Translations under genes and position numbers: made by a program
Part shown: one piece after another, positions 31,627 through 41,644 of the stretch
How the letters are laid out: each line of letters opens with the position of its first letter
Position numbering within the stretch: the stretch's first letter is position 1
Assembly: GCF_033546935.1 (NCBI RefSeq)
Contig: NZ_CP137854.1
Coordinates: 4,340,001-4,404,000 of the forward strand
Length of the DNA stretch: 64,000 bases
Direction: 5' to 3'
Source of the DNA: Xylophilus sp. GOD-11R
GTDB taxonomy: Bacteria > Pseudomonadota > Gammaproteobacteria > Burkholderiales > Burkholderiaceae_C
The notes under the pieces: generated by a model
Seen by the model: only the letters and a program-made list of their open reading frames with translations
The model's database searches: none
Told to the model about the DNA's origin: nothing

Positions 31627-33099
31627 CTAGGCGCCCCAGGCCAGCCCGTCCTTGCGTTTGTCGGAGGCGCCGACGAGGCCGCCGTCCGGCGCACGCATCA
31701 CCCATTGCGCACCGCCGAAATCGCTGCGGCCGCCAAGCTCGCCCTGGCCGAGCGGGTCGGTATAGCCGGCGCCGCGCAGCACGGCGGCGACAGCCGGGTC
31801 GTAACCGGCCTCGATGGCCAGTGCCGTGTCCGACTCGAGCCGCCAGCGCGGTGCGTCCAGCGCGGCCTGCAGCGGCTCGCCGAAAGCCGCCACGCGCAGC
31901 ATCAGTTGCAGCTGACCCTGCGGCTGCATCGCGCCGCCCACCACGCCGAAGGCCGCGTGGAAGCGCCCTTCGCGCAATGCCGCCCCCGGCACCACCGTGT
32001 GATAGGGCCGCTTGCGCGGCGCCGGGCCGTTGATATGGCCGGTGCCGGAGAAACCGAAACCGCGGTTCTGCAGCACGAAACCGCAGCCCGGTGCGGCGAT
32101 GCCGGAGCCGAAGCGTTTGAACACGCTGGTCATCAGGGTCACGGCCAGGCCGTCGCGGTCGACCACCACGGTGCAGACGGTATTGCCGGCCGGGTCGGCC
32201 ACCGTCTTCTGCGCCCAGCGCATCGCCTCGCCCATGGCCTGCACCGCCTGCAGCGTGGTGCGCGGATCGGCCGGGTCGAGCGGCTGGGCTTCGAGCGTGT
32301 CGAGCGCGCGCAGCACCGCCACGCCGTGGGTGTTGGGCGGGCATTCGAGCACCGTCAGTCCGCGAAAGCGGGTGGAGGCCGGGGTGCAGAAAAGGCCGTC
32401 GTGCGCCGCGAAATCGGCTTCGGTCAGCACGCCGCCGAGCGCCTGCACCTGCTGTGCGGCGGCCCGCGCGGGCGCGCCGAGGTAGAAGGCATCCGGTCCG
32501 TCGGAGGCGATGGCCTGCAGCACCTGGGCGAGTTCGGGATTGGCGAACACCTCGCCCGCGCGCGGCGGCTCAGCGGCGCGGTAGAGCGCGGCGCTGTGGG
32601 CATCGCGCATCAGCACCTTGGCGAACAGCGCCCATTCGCGGGCGCACACCGGTGCCACCGCGAAGCCCGAGCGCGCCGCCGCGATCGCCGGCGCGAAGAG
32701 CGAGGCCCAGGGCAGCCGGCCGAAGCGACCGTGCATGTCGTGCCAGCCGCGCACCGCGCCGGGCACCGTCACCGCATACGGGTGGCGTTCGCCGATGCGT
32801 CCGTTCGGCAACGCGTCGACCAGCGACGGCTCCAGCGCCGCCGGCGCGCGACCGGTGCCGTTGTAGCTGAGCGGCTCGGCATCGACCGGCACCACCATGG
32901 CCAGCATGTCGCCGCCGATGCCGGTGGCCATGGGCTCGACCACGCCCAGCACCGCGTCGGCGGCGATGGCCGCGTCGATCGCCGAGCCGCCGGCTTCGAG
33001 CATGGTGCGCGCGGCCTGCGAGGCCAGCGGATGGCCGGTGGCCACCATGCAGCCGGATGCGTGTACGCCCCGGGCGTCGGTGGATGCGGTCGCGGCCAT
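31627..33099 (-). CDS. gamma-glutamyltransferase-family Ntn hydrolase
   Basis: 490 aa, no signal peptide, so cytoplasmic like YwrD-type relatives. N-terminal block ATGHPLASQAARTMLEAGGSAIDAAIAA and PMATGIGGDMLAMV are GGT signatures. The autoprocessing site lines up at GNTVCTVVVDRDG: nucleophile Thr307 is kept, but the usual T-T-H-x-S reads T-V-C-T-V. The glycine-rich loop GSGIAAPGCGFVLQNRG follows. The canonical family cleaves gamma-glutamyl amides. It starts 2 nt after the permease stop and lies in the GntR-operator regulon, suggesting hydrolysis of an imported conjugate. Confidence 0.85.
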   Translation of the reverse strand: MAATASTDARGVHASGCMVATGHPLASQAARTMLEAGGSAIDAAIAADAVLGVVEPMATGIGGDMLAMVVPVDAEPLSYNGTGRAPAALEPSLVDALPNGRIGERHPYAVTVPGAVRGWHDMHGRFGRLPWASLFAPAIAAARSGFAVAPVCAREWALFAKVLMRDAHSAALYRAAEPPRAGEVFANPELAQVLQAIASDGPDAFYLGAPARAAAQQVQALGGVLTEADFAAHDGLFCTPASTRFRGLTVLECPPNTHGVAVLRALDTLEAQPLDPADPRTTLQAVQAMGEAMRWAQKTVADPAGNTVCTVVVDRDGLAVTLMTSVFKRFGSGIAAPGCGFVLQNRGFGFSGTGHINGPAPRKRPYHTVVPGAALREGRFHAAFGVVGGAMQPQGQLQLMLRVAAFGEPLQAALDAPRWRLESDTALAIEAGYDPAVAAVLRGAGYTDPLGQGELGGRSDFGGAQWVMRAPDGGLVGASDKRKDGLAWGA

Positions 33100-34649: not shown

Positions 34650-34702
34650 GAAGAAGGAACTCCTGTTGGCAAACCGTGGAAGAGATGCAAAACGGCCAAT
34701 CG

Positions 34703-34715
34703 GTATACTGTATGC
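34703..34715. promoter_or_regulatory. GntR-type operator, copy A
   Basis: GTATACTGTATGC, consensus GNATACWGTATNC. It sits within a longer imperfect palindrome (34696-34722) whose outer ends are CCAAT and ATTGG. About 54 nt upstream of the permease start on the minus strand. Confidence 0.7.
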
Positions 34716-34879
34716 GTATTGGCGCTAGTTCTTCATTAGCAAGTACCCTGCCTGCTTTGGCTTCGGTGGAAAGTGATTTTTCCAGCATCTACGCCCTCTT
34801 GCAGTGCTGACTCGGAATGCGGCGCTCCGTCTTGGTGCGGATCTATCGATCGCCCATCGCCGGGTTGACCTCGGATTCG

Positions 34880-34892
34880 GTATACTAAATGA
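34880..34892. promoter_or_regulatory. GntR-type operator, copy B (degenerate)
   Basis: GTATACTAAATGA keeps the left half of the palindrome exactly (GTATACT) with a decayed right half. It lies 177 bp from copy A in the same control region; a possible auxiliary site. Confidence 0.5.
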
Positions 34893-34946: not shown

Positions 34947-35948
34947 TCAGCTGGCCTGAAAGGTGAAGCTGTCCGCGTAGACGTGGTCGATGCTGGCGCC
35001 CCGCGCCAGGAATTCGCGCCGGCTCTGCTCCACCATGGCGGGTGAGCCGCAGAGGTAGATGGCGTGCTCCGACAGGTCGGGAAAATCTTCTATCGCCGCC
35101 TGTTGCACGTAGCCGCGCCGGCCTTGCCAGCCTTCGCCCGCGCGGGAAAGCACCGGCACATAGCGGAAGTCGTCGAAGCGATCGGCCCAGCCCGCCACTT
35201 CCTGGTGCAGATAGAGGTCGCGCTCGTCGCGGGCGCCCCAGTACAGCGCCACCGGCGGGCAGTCGTCCGAGTCCATCAGCGATTCGAGGATGCTCTTGAG
35301 CGGCGCCAGGCCGGTGCCGGTGGCCAGCAGCAGCAGCGGCCGGTAGTCCTCGGGGTGATGGCAGAAGGTGCCCAGCGGCAGCTCCACCTCCAGCGTGTCG
35401 CCCGCGCGCAACCCGCCCACCCGGTGGTGCGTGAAGCGGCCTTCGGGAATGCGGCGCAGATGAAAGTCCACACCCCGACCGTCCGGCCGCGAAGCCATCG
35501 AGAAGCTGCGCGGGCTGCCGTCTTCCAGGAACAGGTTGCCGTACTGGCCGGGGCGATACACCAGCTCGCCGGCTTCCGGCGGCAGATCCAGCCGCAGGTG
35601 CGTGACGCCCTCGCCCAGCGCCTGCACCGCCTGCACCGTGGCGCGGTAGCGCTGCGGTGGCGAGCATGGCGCGAGCAGGCGTTCGGGCTGCAGGGTCACA
35701 TCGGCCAGCGCATGGGCCTGGCAGGCCAGCGCGAAGCCGGCCGCGTCTTCCTCGGGGCTCAAGCCGGGCGGGAAATCTTCATAAGCGACGCGGCCGGTGG
35801 CAATGCGCACCCGGCAGGTGCCGCAGGTGCCGAAGCGGCAGTCGTGCGGCAGGCGGATGCCCGCACGCTCGGCGGCGTCGAGCAGGGTTTCGCCCTCCTC
35901 CGCATCGAAGGCGGCGGCGGGCTCGAGCATCTGGATGCGGTAGGCCAT
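34947..35948 (-). CDS. [2Fe-2S]/FAD/NAD(P)H oxygenase reductase
   Basis: 333 aa three-domain electron-transfer protein. Residues 1-90 are a plant-type ferredoxin domain with Cys37, Cys42, Cys45 (CRFGTCGTC) and Cys76 (FALACQAH). The FAD domain has PRSFSMAS, and the NAD(P) domain has LLLLATGTGLAPLKSILESL, WGARDERDLY and YLCGSPAMVEQSRREF. This is the architecture of phenol-hydroxylase/benzoate-dioxygenase reductases and AscD. It is last in the aldehyde-dehydrogenase operon and is the obvious electron source for the two ferredoxins and HDO-like oxygenase encoded divergently. ATG 35948. Confidence 0.93.
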   Translation of the reverse strand: MAYRIQMLEPAAAFDAEEGETLLDAAERAGIRLPHDCRFGTCGTCRVRIATGRVAYEDFPPGLSPEEDAAGFALACQAHALADVTLQPERLLAPCSPPQRYRATVQAVQALGEGVTHLRLDLPPEAGELVYRPGQYGNLFLEDGSPRSFSMASRPDGRGVDFHLRRIPEGRFTHHRVGGLRAGDTLEVELPLGTFCHHPEDYRPLLLLATGTGLAPLKSILESLMDSDDCPPVALYWGARDERDLYLHQEVAGWADRFDDFRYVPVLSRAGEGWQGRRGYVQQAAIEDFPDLSEHAIYLCGSPAMVEQSRREFLARGASIDHVYADSFTFQAS

Positions 35949-35977: not shown

Positions 35978-36457
35978 TTATTTCTTGATGTCGGCCTGCA
36001 CCAGCACCTGGTGGCCCAGGGGTGCGAGCAGTTCCTGCAGCGCGGCCAGGGCGGCGACGCCGGCCGCCGTGTCCTGCTCGCCGTTGCCGCCCGACAGGCC
36101 GACCCCGCCGACGACCTGGTCGTCGATCACGATCGGGAAGCCGCCGACGAACACCGCGAACTTGCCCTCGAAGCTCCACTGGATGCCGAAGGCTTCGTTG
36201 CCCGGCAGCGCCGGGCCGTTGGGCGCGGTGTTGAACAGGTGGGTCGAGCGCTTGTGGCCGGCCGCCGTGAAGGCCTTGTTCCAGGCGATCTGCGGGCCGG
36301 TGATGCGGGCGCCGTCCATGCGGTCCATGGCGATCGGATAGCCGCCGTCGTCGCAGATGCAGATGGTTTCGAGCACGCCGATTTCCTGCGACTTGGCGAT
36401 GGCCGCGGCGATCATGTGGCGGGCTTCGGCGAGTTCGAGGCGGATGACTTTTTTCAT
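35978..36457 (-). CDS. GlcG/HbpS-family (DUF336) protein
   Basis: 159 aa, matching the GlcG/HbpS/PduO-C fold: LAEARHMIAAAIAKSQEIGV, ICICDDGGYPIAMDRMDGA, and PIVIDDQVVGGVGLSGGNGEQD. Some relatives bind heme or cobalamin-related ligands, but many accompany catabolic operons without known roles. Encoded between the aldehyde dehydrogenase (50-nt gap) and the reductase (29-nt gap) in one operon. ATG 36457. Confidence 0.88.
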   Translation of the reverse strand: MKKVIRLELAEARHMIAAAIAKSQEIGVLETICICDDGGYPIAMDRMDGARITGPQIAWNKAFTAAGHKRSTHLFNTAPNGPALPGNEAFGIQWSFEGKFAVFVGGFPIVIDDQVVGGVGLSGGNGEQDTAAGVAALAALQELLAPLGHQVLVQADIKK

Positions 36458-36507: not shown

Positions 36508-37980
36508 TCAGATGCCGCGGTAGACGGTCTTGATCTGGGTGTAGAACTCCAGGCCGCCGCGACCGGACTCGCGGAAAGTGGAGGTGCTGGAGCGCTTGAG
36601 GCCGCCGAAGGGCGCGTTCATCAGGTTGCCGGTGGTGGTTCGGTTGATCTTCACCGTGCCCGATTCGATGTCGAACGCGAACGCATGTGCGTAGCGCGGA
36701 TTGCGGGTGCAGATGGCCGCCGATAGGCCGTATTCGGTGTCGTTGGCCTGGGCGATCGCATCGGCGTAGTCGGCCACTTCGATGATCGCCAGCACCGGGC
36801 CGAAGATCTCCTCGCGGGCGATGCGCATCTGCTGCGTCACGCCACCGAACACGGCCGGCGACACGTAGTAGCCGTGCGCGAAATCGCCTTCGGTGAGGCG
36901 CTCGCCGCCGCACAGCAAGGTGGCCTCGGACTTGCCGATGTCGATGTAGTGCAGCACCGACTTCAGCTGCGCGGCGGTGGCCAGCGGGCCCAGGTCCATG
37001 CCCTTGGTCATGCCGCTGCCCACCTTCAGCGTGCGCACCTTGGCGACCAGCTTGTCGGTGAAGGCCTGCAGGACCGACGACACGACCAGGATGCGGCTCG
37101 TGCCGGTACAGGCCTGGCCGGAGAGCGACAGCCCGCCCTTCACAGCCAGGTCGACCGCCAGGTCCAGGTCGGCGTCTTCCATGACGATCAGCGGGTTCTT
37201 GCCGCCCAGCTCCATCTGGGTGCGGGTGGTGAGGCTGGCGGCGCGGTGGATCTGTTCGCCGGCCGCCGTGGAGCCGGTGAAGGAGATGGCGCGCACGGCG
37301 GGCGCGGTGGTGAGCACCGGGCCGACTTCGGACGCCCGGCCGGTGATGAAGTTGAGCACGCCCGGCGGCAGGCCACCGTGCACCAACGCCTCGGCCAGAC
37401 GCAGGCCCGACAGCGGCGCCTCCGACGAAGGCTTGAACACCACGGTATTGCCCATCACCAGCGCCGGCGCGATCTTGCGCGCGGGAATCGACACCGGAAA
37501 GTTCCAGGGCGCGATCACCGTCACCACGCCCAGCGCCTCGCGCTGGGTAAAGACCAGCATGTCCGCGTCGTCCTGCGCAAAGGTCTCGCCGGAGAAGGAC
37601 TGGCCTTCGATCGCATAAAAGCGCAGCGTCTGCGCCGAGCGCAGGAATTCGTCGCGCGCCAGCGCCAGGCCCTTGCCCTCTTCGCGGGTCAGTTCTTCGG
37701 CGAAACGGTCGACATGGGCTTCCAGGTAATCGGCCGCGGCCAGCAGCATCTTGGCCCGGCGGGTGACCGGCGTGCGGCGCCAGCCGTCGAACGCGGCCTG
37801 CGCGGCCTGCACCGCTTCTTCTGCGTCGTCCGCTGCGGAGGCCTGGAACAGGCCGACGGTCTCGCGTGCGTCGGCCGGATTCAGGCTGGCGAAGGTGGCG
37901 CCGCTGCGGCAGGGCTTCCAGGCGCCGGCGATGTAGTTGGGGAAGGTGGCAGGTACGGTGGCAGGAGAGACGGTGTTCAT
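36508..37980 (-). CDS. NAD(P)-dependent aldehyde dehydrogenase
   Basis: 490 aa class ALDH. Catalytic Asn160 (APWNFPV), Glu257 (MELGGKNP) and Cys291 (SGQACTGTSR), plus the cofactor loop FTGSTAAGEQIH and the late EEIFGPVL. The sequence most resembles semialdehyde dehydrogenases (ketoglutarate-, succinate- or vanillin-type). ATG 37980 is chosen because a normal ALDH N-terminus follows; an upstream in-frame start adds 22 unlikely residues crossing an operator site. First gene of the minus-strand operon under GntR-type palindromes; it presumably oxidises the aldehyde released by the HDO-like enzyme. Confidence 0.93.
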   Translation of the reverse strand: MNTVSPATVPATFPNYIAGAWKPCRSGATFASLNPADARETVGLFQASAADDAEEAVQAAQAAFDGWRRTPVTRRAKMLLAAADYLEAHVDRFAEELTREEGKGLALARDEFLRSAQTLRFYAIEGQSFSGETFAQDDADMLVFTQREALGVVTVIAPWNFPVSIPARKIAPALVMGNTVVFKPSSEAPLSGLRLAEALVHGGLPPGVLNFITGRASEVGPVLTTAPAVRAISFTGSTAAGEQIHRAASLTTRTQMELGGKNPLIVMEDADLDLAVDLAVKGGLSLSGQACTGTSRILVVSSVLQAFTDKLVAKVRTLKVGSGMTKGMDLGPLATAAQLKSVLHYIDIGKSEATLLCGGERLTEGDFAHGYYVSPAVFGGVTQQMRIAREEIFGPVLAIIEVADYADAIAQANDTEYGLSAAICTRNPRYAHAFAFDIESGTVKINRTTTGNLMNAPFGGLKRSSTSTFRESGRGGLEFYTQIKTVYRGI

Positions 37981-38012: not shown

Positions 38013-38025
38013 GAATACTGTATAC
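38013..38025. promoter_or_regulatory. GntR-type operator, copy C
   Basis: GAATACTGTATAC, an exact fit to GNATACWGTATNC. Positioned 33 nt upstream of the aldehyde dehydrogenase start in the divergent promoter region. Confidence 0.7.
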
Positions 38026-38082
38026 CAAATAGCACGATTTACTCAAGCAATGCCGCGAAATGCTTGCGTATCTGAGATTACG

Positions 38083-38095
38083 GTATACAGTATGC
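38083..38095. promoter_or_regulatory. GntR-type operator, copy D
   Basis: GTATACAGTATGC, an exact fit to the consensus and identical to copy A except the central base. It overlaps a likely -10 element and lies 69 nt before the HDO-like gene, 58 bp from copy C, so each divergent operon has its own site. Confidence 0.7.
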
Positions 38096-38164
38096 CCATG
38101 GATGGGGTATCCAACGCCATCCTGAGTCGTTCACCACCACCCCTCTCTCGTGCAGGAGCCCGCC

Positions 38165-38896
38165 ATGTCCGAACTGATGTCCCGCGACGAATTCCGTACT
38201 GCTCTCGAAAATGCCATCAAGGGCAAGAGCGCCAACAAGTCCCCGTTCAGCCTGGCCTGGGCCGGCGGCACCCTGAGCCGCGCGCAGCTCGCACGCTGGG
38301 CCGAGAACCATTTCCACTACGTCGGCCCGTTCGCCGACTACCTGGGCTATGTCTACGCCCGCATGCCGGCGCAGCACGTCGAGGCCAAGGACTTCCTGCT
38401 GGCCAACATGTACGAAGAGGAAATCGGCGGTGATCGCCACACCGATCTGCTGATCCGCTTCGCCGAAGCCTGCGGCACCACCCGCGAACGCGTGACCGAC
38501 GAAGACAACATGTCGCCCACCACCCGCGCCCTGCAGGCCTGGTGCTATGCGGTCGCCATGCGCGAAGACCCGGTGGTGGCGGTCGCCGGCCTGGTGGTCG
38601 GCCTGGAATCGCAAGTGCCTTCCATTTATCGCAAGCAGACGCCCACGCTGCGCGAGAAGTACGGCTTTTCCGACGAGGAAGTCGAGTTCTTCGACCTGCA
38701 CATCGTCTCCGACGAAATCCACGGCGAGCGCGGCTACCAGATCGTGCTGGAGCTGGCCAACACGCCCGAGCTGCAGCAGCGCTGCCTGAAGATCTGCGAA
38801 GTCGGCGCCCAGATGCGCCTGCTCTACACCACCGCGCTCTACAACGACTACGTGGCGGTGCAGCCGGAAGAAGCGGCCGAAGCCGTCGCGGCCTGA
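38165..38896 (+). CDS. heme-oxygenase-like diiron oxidase (HDO; TenA/PqqC-like)
   Basis: 243 aa all-helical TenA/PqqC-like protein. It carries all six ligands of HDO diiron enzymes at CADD-like spacing: Glu85 and His92 (EEEIGGDRH), Glu148 (GLESQVP), then His179, Asp183 and His186 (DLHIVSDEIHGERG). CADD has Glu81/His88, Glu142 and His174/Asp178/His181, so intervals of 7, 4 and 3 are reproduced. HDOs (UndA, BesC, SznF) oxidise amines, amino acids or fatty acids with O2. ATG 38165 follows CAGGAG; GTG 38150 is less likely. The neighbouring ferredoxins and reductase would supply electrons. Thiaminase activity is unlikely given these ligands and context. Confidence 0.82.
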   Translation: MSELMSRDEFRTALENAIKGKSANKSPFSLAWAGGTLSRAQLARWAENHFHYVGPFADYLGYVYARMPAQHVEAKDFLLANMYEEEIGGDRHTDLLIRFAEACGTTRERVTDEDNMSPTTRALQAWCYAVAMREDPVVAVAGLVVGLESQVPSIYRKQTPTLREKYGFSDEEVEFFDLHIVSDEIHGERGYQIVLELANTPELQQRCLKICEVGAQMRLLYTTALYNDYVAVQPEEAAEAVAA

Positions 38897-38924
38897 TCGC
38901 GTCCATCGCCCGAGAGCCCGGCCC

Positions 38925-39230
38925 ATGCCCCAAGTCGTATTCCACAAGAACGGCCAGACCTTCACCGACGAGGTGAAGGACAACACCAACCTGGTGGTGC
39001 GGGCCGGCATCAAGCAGTTTCCGTTTCCGCATCTCAAGTACCAGTGCGGCATGGGCAAGTGCGCCACCTGCGCCTGCGAAGTGCTGGCGGGCGGCGACCA
39101 GCTGCCGCCGCCCAACTGGAAGGAAAAGAAGCAGCTCGGCGACCGCCTGGATGCCGGCTGGCGCCTGGCCTGCCAGCTCTGGCTGGAACACGACATCGAG
39201 CTGCGCCAGGACGACCCCGTCGGCGCCTGA
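38925..39230 (+). CDS. [2Fe-2S] ferredoxin 1
   Basis: 101 aa plant-type ferredoxin with Cys41, Cys46, Cys49 (QCGMGKCATCAC) and Cys83 (RLACQLWL); an extra Cys51 follows the third ligand. It lies 28 nt after the HDO gene in the same operon. Longer and more basic in the middle (PPPNWKEKKQLGDRLDAG) than the second ferredoxin, so the two probably have different partners. It likely carries electrons from the FAD reductase to the oxygenase. Confidence 0.92.
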   Translation: MPQVVFHKNGQTFTDEVKDNTNLVVRAGIKQFPFPHLKYQCGMGKCATCACEVLAGGDQLPPPNWKEKKQLGDRLDAGWRLACQLWLEHDIELRQDDPVGA

Positions 39231-39242
39231 ATCGCCCACACC

Positions 39243-39545
39243 ATGTTCCTGATCCTCACCAGCAAGCCGGGGCTCTTCCGCACCGAGATGGGCGACGGCC
39301 TCGCCGCCGTCGAATCCTACGACTACCTGTTCTGCGAACGGGTGAAGGCGCATTTCGTCATCGCCGAACTCGTCGGTGAACTGTCCCGCACCCGGGTGCG
39401 GGTGGTCGACGAATCCGGCGAGCCCAGCGTCAATTCGGTGCCGGCCAAGTTCCTGGAGAAGTTCGACTCCATCGCCGCCGCCCGCCAGGAACTGCAGCAC
39501 CTCTGCGCCTTCGGCAGCCAGGACACGGCGCTGGTCCGCACCTGA
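39243..39545 (+). CDS. conserved-looking 100-aa protein of unknown function
   Basis: I do not recognise this family with confidence. 100 aa, soluble, mixed alpha/beta by pattern: MFLILTSKPGLFRTEMGDG, YDYLFCERVKAHFVIAEL, TRVRVVDESGEPSVNSVPAKF and LEKFDSIAAARQELQHL. A single Cys in YLFCE and an aromatic-rich core are visible; there is no metal or nucleotide motif. The 12-nt gap after ferredoxin 1 and 36-nt gap before ferredoxin 2 place it firmly inside the operon. A small effector or assembly subunit of the oxygenase is a reasonable inference. Confidence 0.8.
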   Translation: MFLILTSKPGLFRTEMGDGLAAVESYDYLFCERVKAHFVIAELVGELSRTRVRVVDESGEPSVNSVPAKFLEKFDSIAAARQELQHLCAFGSQDTALVRT

Positions 39546-39581
39546 TTCACCTCTCTCTTCCTTTTTGCCGAAGCGCCTGCC

Positions 39582-39872
39582 ATGGCCCAGATCACCTTCA
39601 TCACCAACAACGACCAGGTCGTGCAGGCCCCCGACAACAGCAGCCTGCTGCGCGTGGCCCTGCGCGAGAAGGCGGGCATTCCGTTCAAGTGCGGCGGTGG
39701 CCTGTGCGGCACCTGCAAGTGCCGCATCGAGCAGGGCCGCGAGAACATGGACGCGATCAAGCCCAAGGAACGCAAACACCTGAAAGACGAAGACTTCGCC
39801 GCCGGCTACCGCATGGCCTGCCAGGCCTTCGTGGTCAGCGGCGAGATCGCCGTCTCCTGGGACAAGAAGTAG
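39582..39872 (+). CDS. [2Fe-2S] ferredoxin 2
   Basis: 96 aa ferredoxin with Cys37, Cys42, Cys45 (KCGGGLCGTCKC) and Cys80 (YRMACQAFV). Lys-rich segment at 55-68 (MDAIKPKERKHLKDED). Only about one third resembles ferredoxin 1, so it is not a fresh duplicate. Encoded 9 nt before the ornithine-cyclodeaminase-family gene. Confidence 0.92.
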   Translation: MAQITFITNNDQVVQAPDNSSLLRVALREKAGIPFKCGGGLCGTCKCRIEQGRENMDAIKPKERKHLKDEDFAAGYRMACQAFVVSGEIAVSWDKK

Positions 39873-39882
39873 CAGGCCCGCC

Positions 39883-40803
39883 ATGCACCACGTCACCGAC
39901 GCGATGATCGACGCGGCCGTCACCCCGGCCGACGCCCAGGCCGTGCTGCGCGATGCGCTGCAGCGGCTGGGCCAGGGTGAAGCCGCGATGCAGGAGCGCA
40001 TCCGCACCGAAGCCGGCGGCGTCAAGCTGTCCACGCTGGGCGCGGTGATTCCCGGCCAACACGTCGCCGGCGCCAAGGTCTACACCACCATCGCCGGGCA
40101 GTTCAATTTCGTGATCCTGCTGTTCTCCACCGAGGACGGCCGGCCGCTGGCCTCGTTCGACGCCGGCGCCATCACCCGGCTGCGCACCGCCGCCTGCTCG
40201 ACCATCGCCGCGCGCCACCTGGCCCGGCCCGACGCGCGCCACCTCGGCCTGCTGGGCTGCGGCGTGCAGGGCCAGGCGCATGCGCGGCAGCTGTCGAGCG
40301 CCTTCGGGCTGCGCCGCATCCGCGTGTTCGACCCGCATGTGGCGCCCGGCGTGCTAGCCGCGTTGCAGCAAGACTGCGGCGTCACCGTGGAGCACTGCGC
40401 CACGGCCGAAGCGGCCATCGACGGTGCCGACATCGTGGTGACCGCCTCGCGCGCCACCGAACCCCTGTTCCACGGCGACCGGCTGCCGGTCGGCTGCTTC
40501 GTCGCGGCCATCGGTTCGAGCCTGCCGCACACCCGCGAACTCGACGACACCGCCCTGCGTCGCGCCTCGCTCATCGCCATTGAATGGAAGCAGCAGACGC
40601 TGCGCGAAGCCGGCGACCTGGTGCGCGCCGCGCCCGACGCGCTGCTGCCCGAAGGCAAGGTCGTGGAGCTGGCCGACCTGGTCACCGGCCGGGTCGCCGG
40701 ACGCCAGGGCGACGACGAGATCACGCTCTACAAGTCGGTCGGCATCGGCCTGCAGGACGTGGCGCTCGCGGGCCTGGCGTGGAGCCGGCTGGCGCTGGCC
40801 TGA
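39883..40803 (+). CDS. ornithine cyclodeaminase / mu-crystallin family enzyme
   Basis: 306 aa. NAD(P)-binding family that deaminates or reduces amino acids and cyclic imines. Typical blocks: GGVKLSTLGAVIPGQ, LASFDAGAITRLRTAACSTIAARHLAR, the Rossmann loop HLGLLGCGVQGQAHARQL, IVVTASRATEPLF, FVAAIGSSLPHTREL and ITLYKSVGIGLQDVALA. Members include ornithine cyclodeaminase, ketimine reductase and tauropine-type enzymes. Its presence in the oxygenase operon is the strongest hint that the substrate or product carries an amino group. The catalytic Asp/Lys set was not mapped, so the reaction is open. Confidence 0.9.
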   Translation: MHHVTDAMIDAAVTPADAQAVLRDALQRLGQGEAAMQERIRTEAGGVKLSTLGAVIPGQHVAGAKVYTTIAGQFNFVILLFSTEDGRPLASFDAGAITRLRTAACSTIAARHLARPDARHLGLLGCGVQGQAHARQLSSAFGLRRIRVFDPHVAPGVLAALQQDCGVTVEHCATAEAAIDGADIVVTASRATEPLFHGDRLPVGCFVAAIGSSLPHTRELDDTALRRASLIAIEWKQQTLREAGDLVRAAPDALLPEGKVVELADLVTGRVAGRQGDDEITLYKSVGIGLQDVALAGLAWSRLALA

Positions 40804-40903: not shown

Positions 40904-41644
40904 ATGTCCGACAACGCAAGCTCCAGCTTTCCGGCAGAGGTCGTGGACCTCCCCGCCGCCGCGCCGAGCGCCTTGCCCAGCGTGGGTGATCAGCATGCCT
41001 CGCTCTTCACCATCGTCACCGACGCGCTGCGTCGCAAGATCCTCGACGGCGAGTACGCCCAGGGCGACCGGCTGGTCGAAGGCCGCATCTCCGAGCAATT
41101 GGGCGTGTCGCGCATTCCGGTGCGCGAGGCGTTACGCGCGCTGGCCTCCGAAGGCCTGGTGCGCATCGAGCCGCGGCGGGGCGCCACCGTGGCCAGCGTC
41201 TCCAGCCAATTGGCCGAAGACCTGGTGGAGGTGCGCGCCACGCTGGAGAGCCTCAACGCCCGGCTGTCGGCGCAGCGGCGCGACCAGGCCATGGTGGAGC
41301 GGCTGCGCGGCCTGCTCGACGCCGGCCGGCGCGCGGCCGCGGCCAACGACGTCGATGCCCTCGTGGCCGCCAATGCGCAGGTGCACGACCTGATCGCCAT
41401 CGGCGCGGGCAACGAGGTGCTGGCCGACATGACGCGTTCCCTGCGCGACCGCACCGCGCTGCTGTTCGCGCCGATCAATCGCGGCCGGGCCTTCGACAAC
41501 TGGATCGACCACAGCCAGATCCTGGAAGCGTTGGTCGCCGGGGACGGCGAACTGGCCGCCCTGCTGGCCGCTCGCCACGTACACAAGGCGGCCGCGGCGT
41601 ATCAGGCCAATCAGGCCCGCGCCGGGCACAAGACCGGCGCCTGA
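40904..41644 (+). CDS. GntR-family regulator with FCD ligand domain
   Basis: 246 aa. Winged HTH at about residues 35-95 (ALRRKILDGEYAQGDRLVEG, SEQLGVSRIPVREALRALASEGLV, RRGATVA), followed by an all-helical FCD domain with the metal-binding Asp/His pattern (EVRATLESLNARL, ANAQVHDLI, WIDHSQILEAL). FCD regulators typically bind short palindromes of the kind found at 34703, 34880, 38013 and 38083 and are released by a carboxylate ligand. Encoded 100 nt after the cyclodeaminase gene, it is the best candidate regulator of this block. ATG 40904. Confidence 0.92.
   Translation: MSDNASSSFPAEVVDLPAAAPSALPSVGDQHASLFTIVTDALRRKILDGEYAQGDRLVEGRISEQLGVSRIPVREALRALASEGLVRIEPRRGATVASVSSQLAEDLVEVRATLESLNARLSAQRRDQAMVERLRGLLDAGRRAAAANDVDALVAANAQVHDLIAIGAGNEVLADMTRSLRDRTALLFAPINRGRAFDNWIDHSQILEALVAGDGELAALLAARHVHKAAAAYQANQARAGHKTGA

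Follow-up and report, generated by a model that had tools for sequence, protein, structure and literature searches.

The window analysed here, a stretch of 64,000 nucleotides from Xylophilus sp. GOD-11R (GCF_033546935.1, NZ_CP137854.1:4,340,001-4,404,000, forward strand), contains a gene for a heme-oxygenase-like dimetal protein (HDO) that is followed by genes for two plant-type [2Fe-2S] ferredoxins (FD1 and FD2), with an orphan protein of 100 amino acids (aa), X100, encoded between them, and for an enzyme of the ornithine cyclodeaminase (OCD)/mu-crystallin family. An aldehyde dehydrogenase (ALDH), an HbpS/GlcG-like protein and an FAD/2Fe-2S reductase are encoded divergently. A first-pass annotation, made from the DNA alone, had proposed these reading frames and families, and the open reading frames (ORFs) and Pfam and NCBIfam searches agree with it throughout (Table 1). 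We consider it likely that the genes belong to an inducible catabolic module built around a multicomponent HDO monooxygenase that has ferredoxins of its own.

Table 1. Genes and operator-like sites of the HDO system, in window positions
Feature	Position	Strand	Basis or remark
HDO, heme-oxygenase-like dimetal protein, predicted terminal oxygenase, 243 aa	38165-38896	+	PF14518, ligands, fold
FD1, plant-type [2Fe-2S] ferredoxin, 101 aa	38925-39230	+	Fer2, CX4CX2CXnC
X100, beta-rich orphan, candidate effector or coupling subunit, 100 aa	39243-39545	+	conservation, model
FD2, plant-type [2Fe-2S] ferredoxin, 96 aa	39582-39872	+	Fer2, CX4CX2CXnC
OCD/mu-crystallin family enzyme, accessory, 306 aa	39883-40803	+	PF02423, 165.9 bits
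GntR/FCD regulator	about 40904-41644, start set by eye	+	GntR and FCD domains; 3' of OCD gene
ALDH	36508-37980	-	PF00171
HbpS/GlcG-like protein	35978-36457	-	PF03928
Reductase, BenC/AntC-like: N-terminal [2Fe-2S], FAD and NAD domains	34947-35948	-	Pfam/NCBIfam
Permease, 515 aa	33102-34649	-	ORF; two operator-like sites upstream
Gamma-glutamyltransferase (GGT)-family Ntn hydrolase, behind permease	31627-33099	-	PF01019, 358.8 bits
Operator-like site 1, near-palindrome GGTATACAGTAT	38082-38096	.	upstream of HDO operon; 1-mismatch match on opposite strand
Operator-like site 2	38015-38026	-	upstream of ALDH-HbpS-reductase; exact match
Operator-like site 3	34702-34713	+	upstream of permease; exact match
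Operator-like site 4	34879-34890	+	upstream of permease; exact match

The HDO protein matches PF14518 with 131.6 bits (cut-off 28.9) and PF03070 with 41.3 bits. The first-pass annotation had assigned to it a full Glu/His/Glu/His/Asp/His ligand set, and alignment with CADD confirms this: the putative ligands E85, H92, E148, H179, D183 and H186 share columns with the E/H/E/H/D/H residues of CADD, which we take to be its metal ligands, and have the CADD-like spacings of 7 (E-H), 4 (H-D) and 3 (D-H). All six are invariant in the 38 sequences of a hand-picked alignment of two HDO families (the window protein, 13 others of its type and 24 of a sister type, chosen from 240 listed), and an expression for the motif fits 88 of the 88 HDO gene calls in the retrieved loci described below. 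A 3-His/3-carboxylate motif is described for HDOs in the available part of a review of the family (PMC13108848). The nearest solved sequences are 4-aminobenzoate synthases and CT610/CADD (9pj4, E 4.4e-18; 1rcw, 7.5e-17; 8va9, 7.9e-17), and the top fold matches of the AlphaFold model (pLDDT 91.8) include CADD, which is the best, PqqC and UndA. The model superposes on CADD at 1.5-1.6 A with 26-27% identity (Foldseek), implying that the six predicted ligands converge at one site. A close resemblance to thiaminase/TenA, which had been named as a finding that would speak against the assignment, was not seen among these matches, TenA-labelled chains being further off than CADD. By fold and ligand set the protein belongs to the HDOs, with a predicted metal site.

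Scanning genome contigs for relatives yielded 331 stretches, of which the best 80 loci were retained; these are the closest relatives and not a random sample. Gene calls in the loci came from a codon-usage script and, because such calls can overlook or shorten genes (L066 and L067 are examples), counts out of 80 were taken from tblastn (E<=1e-8, 40% of query length) within the retrieved stretch. HDO is present in all 80 loci and FD1, X100 and FD2 each in 79, the sole exception being L071, where HDO lies 539 bases from the contig start. The proposal that an HDO and dedicated [2Fe-2S] proteins form a conserved unit is borne out by the joint occurrence of all four genes in these 79 loci; of the wider grouping of HDO, ferredoxin and cyclodeaminase that had been suggested for survey, the ferredoxins recur but OCD is found in only 36 loci. 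The HbpS-like gene occurs in 77, GntR in 73, the permease in 63, ALDH in 62, the reductase in 61, a TauE-type permease in 51 and the GGT-family gene in 7. Median identities to the window are 88% for HDO, 81% for the HbpS-like protein, 74% for FD1 and for ALDH, 70% for the permease, 68% for FD2, 66% for OCD, 58% for GntR, 57% for the reductase and 52% for X100. Conservation within the module is highest for HDO (85-94% identity to the window copy across the 80 loci) and lowest for X100 (42-74%); one locus, L059, has two window-type HDO copies.

Many loci, the window included, have HDO, FD1, X100 and FD2 consecutively on one strand. The set recurs across genera, so its association is not due to chance, and since gene order is reshuffled between genera while the set stays, these observations suggest that it is maintained by selection. 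A sample of 349 genomes from the phylum offered a less biased test of the co-occurrence of HDO and X100. X100 was found in four of these genomes; an HDO-type match (E<=0.001) was found in 62, with identity of at least 86% only in the same four, and the next-best identities were 47% and then 30%. Within the order, HDO at E<=1e-40 was found in 7 of 300 genomes, with 82-100% identity. The distribution of the module is patchy, like that of accessory catabolic modules. A plasmid search gave 11 matching records, and the three examined comprise two from Cupriavidus, which are unannotated, and one from Caballeronia, which supplies gene names.

The cysteine motif CX4CX2CXnC is present in 81/81 called homologues of FD1 and 79/79 of FD2, and the reductase motif was detected in 61 of 68 called reductase genes. 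At E<=0.001 neither Pfam nor NCBIfam contains a match for X100, and its family (aligned as the window protein with 58 of 120 listed homologues, 275 having been found) yields weak matches only, the best with E 0.0086. Its model is confident (pLDDT 93.0), with no PDB-fold match at E<=0.001 and no PDB-sequence match at E<=10. Profile search did not detect the MmoB/DmpM Pfam family in X100, an absence that is no proof of unrelatedness.

The 47% match from the phylum sample, L122, led to a sister HDO family whose members are 42-51% identical to the window HDO. In L122 the HDO gene is accompanied by genes for an HbpS-like protein (56%) and GntR (51%), and FD1, X100 and FD2 are not labelled in the locus; a protein of 272 aa in which Pfam recognises a Rieske domain (58.9 bits) is encoded divergently from HDO, with a GTATAC site between the two genes. 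Among 76 genomes of L122's order, 32 matched at E<=1e-40, in 33 places, and we studied 17 of these places, namely L122 and 16 retrieved regions. Three of the regions (L154-L156) are of the window type, with HDO, FD1, X100 and FD2, and 13 have sister HDOs. HDO, the HbpS-like protein, GntR and the Rieske protein, with its motif CXH...CX2H, occur together in 14/14 sister loci (the 13 and L122), and none of the 13 has a gene labelled as a plant-type ferredoxin. Thus two unrelated types of [2Fe-2S] protein, Rieske in the sister loci and plant-type ferredoxins in the window type, accompany one HDO group. Pfam found only the Rieske domain in the one sister Rieske protein searched; the protein could itself be catalytic. 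Tandem sister-type HDOs, 75% and 83% identical to that of L122, occur in L152, and a CmcJ/NvfI-family oxidoreductase gene lies behind the Rieske gene in L122 (7419-8276, minus strand) and in several other sister loci.

The genes of the window are also connected by operator-like sites. The pattern GGTATACWRWAT, derived from the sites themselves, has exactly four exact matches in the genome of 5,127,500 bases, and its reversed control has none; with up to one mismatch there are 5 matches in the 64-kb window against 0.03 expected, and a looser pattern adds one genome site, at position 3542953. The four exact sites fall into two promoter regions: one pair is between the divergent HDO and ALDH genes, and the other precedes the permease. 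This placement suggests that the permease and the GGT-family gene behind it belong to the HDO system. Of the 81 HDO copies in the 80 loci, 72 have GTATAC within the preceding 300 bp; the other nine are in Roseomonas-like loci, where the permease precedes HDO and GTATAC is upstream of the permease. Across 1.33 Mb (83 loci, three of them from plasmids) there are 400 GTATAC sites, compared with about 112 expected from base composition. Counted in 87 loci over the interval from -320 to +40 bp relative to each gene start, in which some chance matches are expected, GTATAC accompanies 79 HDO, 71 permease, 48 GntR, 44 TauE-type, 33 ALDH, 20 amidase-labelled, 7 NMT1-type binding-protein, 2 GGT-family and 31 unlabelled genes. 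The GntR/FCD protein is the likely reader of these sites. A conserved protein of 61-79 aa, with a core around RDAVRHATPL, is encoded near GTATAC in Achromobacter/Cupriavidus loci (for example L041:7548-7781, minus strand, and L052:13111-13302, plus strand).

In the scheme that we propose, electrons from NAD(P)H would reach the dimetal site of HDO by way of the FAD/2Fe-2S reductase and then one or both [2Fe-2S] ferredoxins, and HDO would activate O2 and oxidise a small carboxylic compound. The HbpS-like protein may take part in the oxygenation or in the step directly after it; it is probably tied to the chemistry, because it is the sole protein besides GntR and the iron-sulfur carriers that is retained with HDO in both families. 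ALDH would act next in most lineages, while lineage-specific amidases, esterases or GGT-family hydrolases would, together with transporters, supply or process the compound, and the GntR/FCD protein would control the gene set through GTATAC operators.

Several points weigh against this scheme. Other HDOs have been operated with ascorbate or mediators, according to the available text of PMC13185094. Of the 80 retrieved stretches, 19 lack the reductase and 18 lack ALDH (both are missing from L014 and L032, whose contigs are shorter than 7 kb), so that a general reductase would need to substitute where the reductase is missing, and the 13 sister stretches contain no gene labelled as a reductase homologue. 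Cupriavidus-type loci place FD1-X100-FD2 on the opposite strand from HDO, past the permease and OCD genes. Because the four sites themselves gave rise to the operator pattern, the number of its matches in the genome is evidence of specificity and not of function. PqqC, which is metal-free, reaches a Z of 27.1, nearly that of CADD, but superposes at 2.6 A. Finally, the ferredoxins could serve cluster repair instead. Some small ferredoxins are known to restore the activity of ring-cleaving dioxygenases, or to assist class I ribonucleotide reductase; the ferredoxins here would likewise reduce or rebuild an oxidised dimetal cluster and not act in each turnover, with HDO working as an oxidase that draws its electrons from the substrate. 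Ferredoxins in 79 loci with a reductase in 61 would fit such a role, as would the weak match of FD2 to the model of the ribonucleotide reductase maintenance ferredoxin YfaE (25.2 bits, cut-off 75) and the labile HDO clusters reported in the part of PMC13108848 available, but two ferredoxins with a complete FAD/2Fe-2S reductase in 61 loci, and a Rieske protein beside the sister HDO, suggest a steady demand for electrons, and we regard a pure repair function as unlikely.

It is less probable still that HDO is a mere neighbour and that the ferredoxins and reductase supply some other enzyme, such as a distant oxygenase or the HbpS-like protein. The Pfam label of the HbpS-like protein refers to heme handling, its gene is in 77 of the 80 loci, and the ferredoxin genes do not adjoin HDO in Cupriavidus-type loci; against this, HDO, FD1, X100 and FD2 are consecutive on one strand in other loci, the window-type HDO and X100 are in the same four genomes of the phylum sample, and no second oxygenase was among the recurrent neighbour clusters annotated, several clusters having been left unannotated. 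We give very little credence to HDO being a metal-free enzyme of the PqqC/TenA type: the closeness to PqqC in Z is accompanied by a match to the PqqC model TIGR02111 of 50.1 bits, below its cut-off of 240. That it is a self-sacrificing 4-aminobenzoate synthase like CADD/NePabS seems scarcely credible, although CADD is nearest to it in sequence and fold, with the same ligand columns, and the CADD-family model TIGR04305 matches with 101.3 bits. This score is below the cut-off of 200, and the self-sacrificed Tyr and the Lys donor, whose roles are described in the available part of PMC11965152, align with Ser29 and Gln158 in the window HDO. The gene context, too, is unlike that of CADD/NePabS.

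The multicomponent HDO monooxygenase that we favour can be compared with known systems. The first-pass annotation had stated that characterised HDOs are not known to have a dedicated ferredoxin chain. This needs amending, since a dedicated redox partner does exist, MboA/MboB being described as possibly the first characterised pair of this kind; like the present system it joins an HDO with 3-His/3-carboxylate ligands to a dedicated FAD/2Fe-2S reductase, but it is a mangotoxin acetylenase of peptide natural-product biosynthesis, and the available part of that paper mentions no separate ferredoxins or small extra protein (PMC13185094). With two separate ferredoxins, X100, an HbpS-like partner and an apparent catabolic regulon, the present system looks to go beyond MboA/MboB. 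UndA, BesC, HrmI, PolF and FlcD share its fold and have ligand sets set out in the available part of PMC13108848, FlcD differing in nuclearity, but they are only 9-20% identical to the window HDO in structural alignments. The same review, in the text available, presents HDOs as a growing class that is known chiefly from biosynthesis and of which roughly a dozen members have a validated function, and does not contain the word 'ferredoxin'. Among the matches listed from the open-licence literature, no publication deals with this cluster, and none describes an HDO that has separate ferredoxins or an effector protein. A dedicated iron-sulfur electron supply appears to be hardly known for the family.

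The window encodes an oxygenase together with an NAD(P)H reductase, ferredoxins and a small extra protein, as multicomponent monooxygenases do, and its working principle may resemble theirs, though it is none of the ferritin-like kind. sMMO and the toluene/phenol hydroxylases, which combine oxygenase, reductase, ferredoxin and a small extra protein, offer a possible analogy only; their oxygenase has the ferritin-like fold. Three-component Rieske oxygenases share the chain of NAD(P)H reductase, ferredoxin and oxygenase but differ in the terminal oxygenase, which here is an HDO; a short Rieske protein does, however, accompany the HDOs of the sister family. As a tentative extension, which we think more apt to be wrong than right, X100 might be a protein effector that gates O2 activation, making the system the HDO counterpart of the sMMO-type machine (terminal oxygenase, reductase, two ferredoxins and regulatory subunit, in another fold), with the sister family solving its electron supply independently by means of the Rieske protein. 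If our reading is true, the existence of a widespread catabolic HDO served by ferredoxins of its own would demonstrate that the scaffold can sustain many turnovers as an NAD(P)H-driven monooxygenase. It would also reveal how electrons enter HDOs, a question raised by MboA/MboB, and X100 would allow the gating of HDOs by a protein to be tested.

FCD-type regulators often sense carboxylates. Because the regulator is of this type, a permease orthologue (L154:6595-8100) weakly resembles the C4-dicarboxylate carrier DcuC (28.9 bits), and the HDO substrates known so far are mostly fatty or amino acids according to the available part of PMC13108848, a small carboxylic compound is the likeliest class of substrate. 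A substrate with an amino group and an aldehyde product had been proposed at the outset. Both proposals are weakly supported: ALDH, in 62 loci, suggests an aldehyde intermediate, and OCD, in 36, is too patchy for an amine to be deduced from it. The partners that HDO has almost everywhere are instead the two ferredoxins, X100 and the HbpS-like protein. The operator-defined gene set provides a direct path towards the substrate through induction or deletion screens.

The accessory genes differ between lineages and do not point to one substrate that would fit all neighbourhoods. Beside the system lie genes for GGT-family, amidase, isochorismatase-like, alpha/beta-hydrolase and esterase-like proteins, taurine/NMT1-type ABC components and TauE-type permeases, with at least one GGT, amidase, isochorismatase-like or alpha/beta-hydrolase homologue in 33 of the 80 loci. 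Dipicolinate, nicotinate-type rings, opines, tetrapyrrole fragments and an oxidative route from amino acid to amide were considered and not adopted. In the window, the permease has no Pfam match at E<=0.001 and no NCBIfam match even at E<=1, despite its conservation in 63 loci; the best NCBIfam model for ALDH is KGSADH-like (545 bits, below the cut-off of 770), and the nearest solved chain to the OCD-family protein is 3hdj, a 'probable ornithine cyclodeaminase' (371 bits). Five loci of Acetobacteraceae type (L029, L050, L056, L060 and L061) have, upstream of HDO, genes for a molybdenum hydroxylase of the xanthine-dehydrogenase type, a PRK04334-type protein (presumably UPF0280), a protein of 471 aa that begins with a cysteine-rich stretch, and an amidohydrolase. 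This upstream set looks like a cluster for the catabolism of an N-heterocycle, with a putative connection to HDO.

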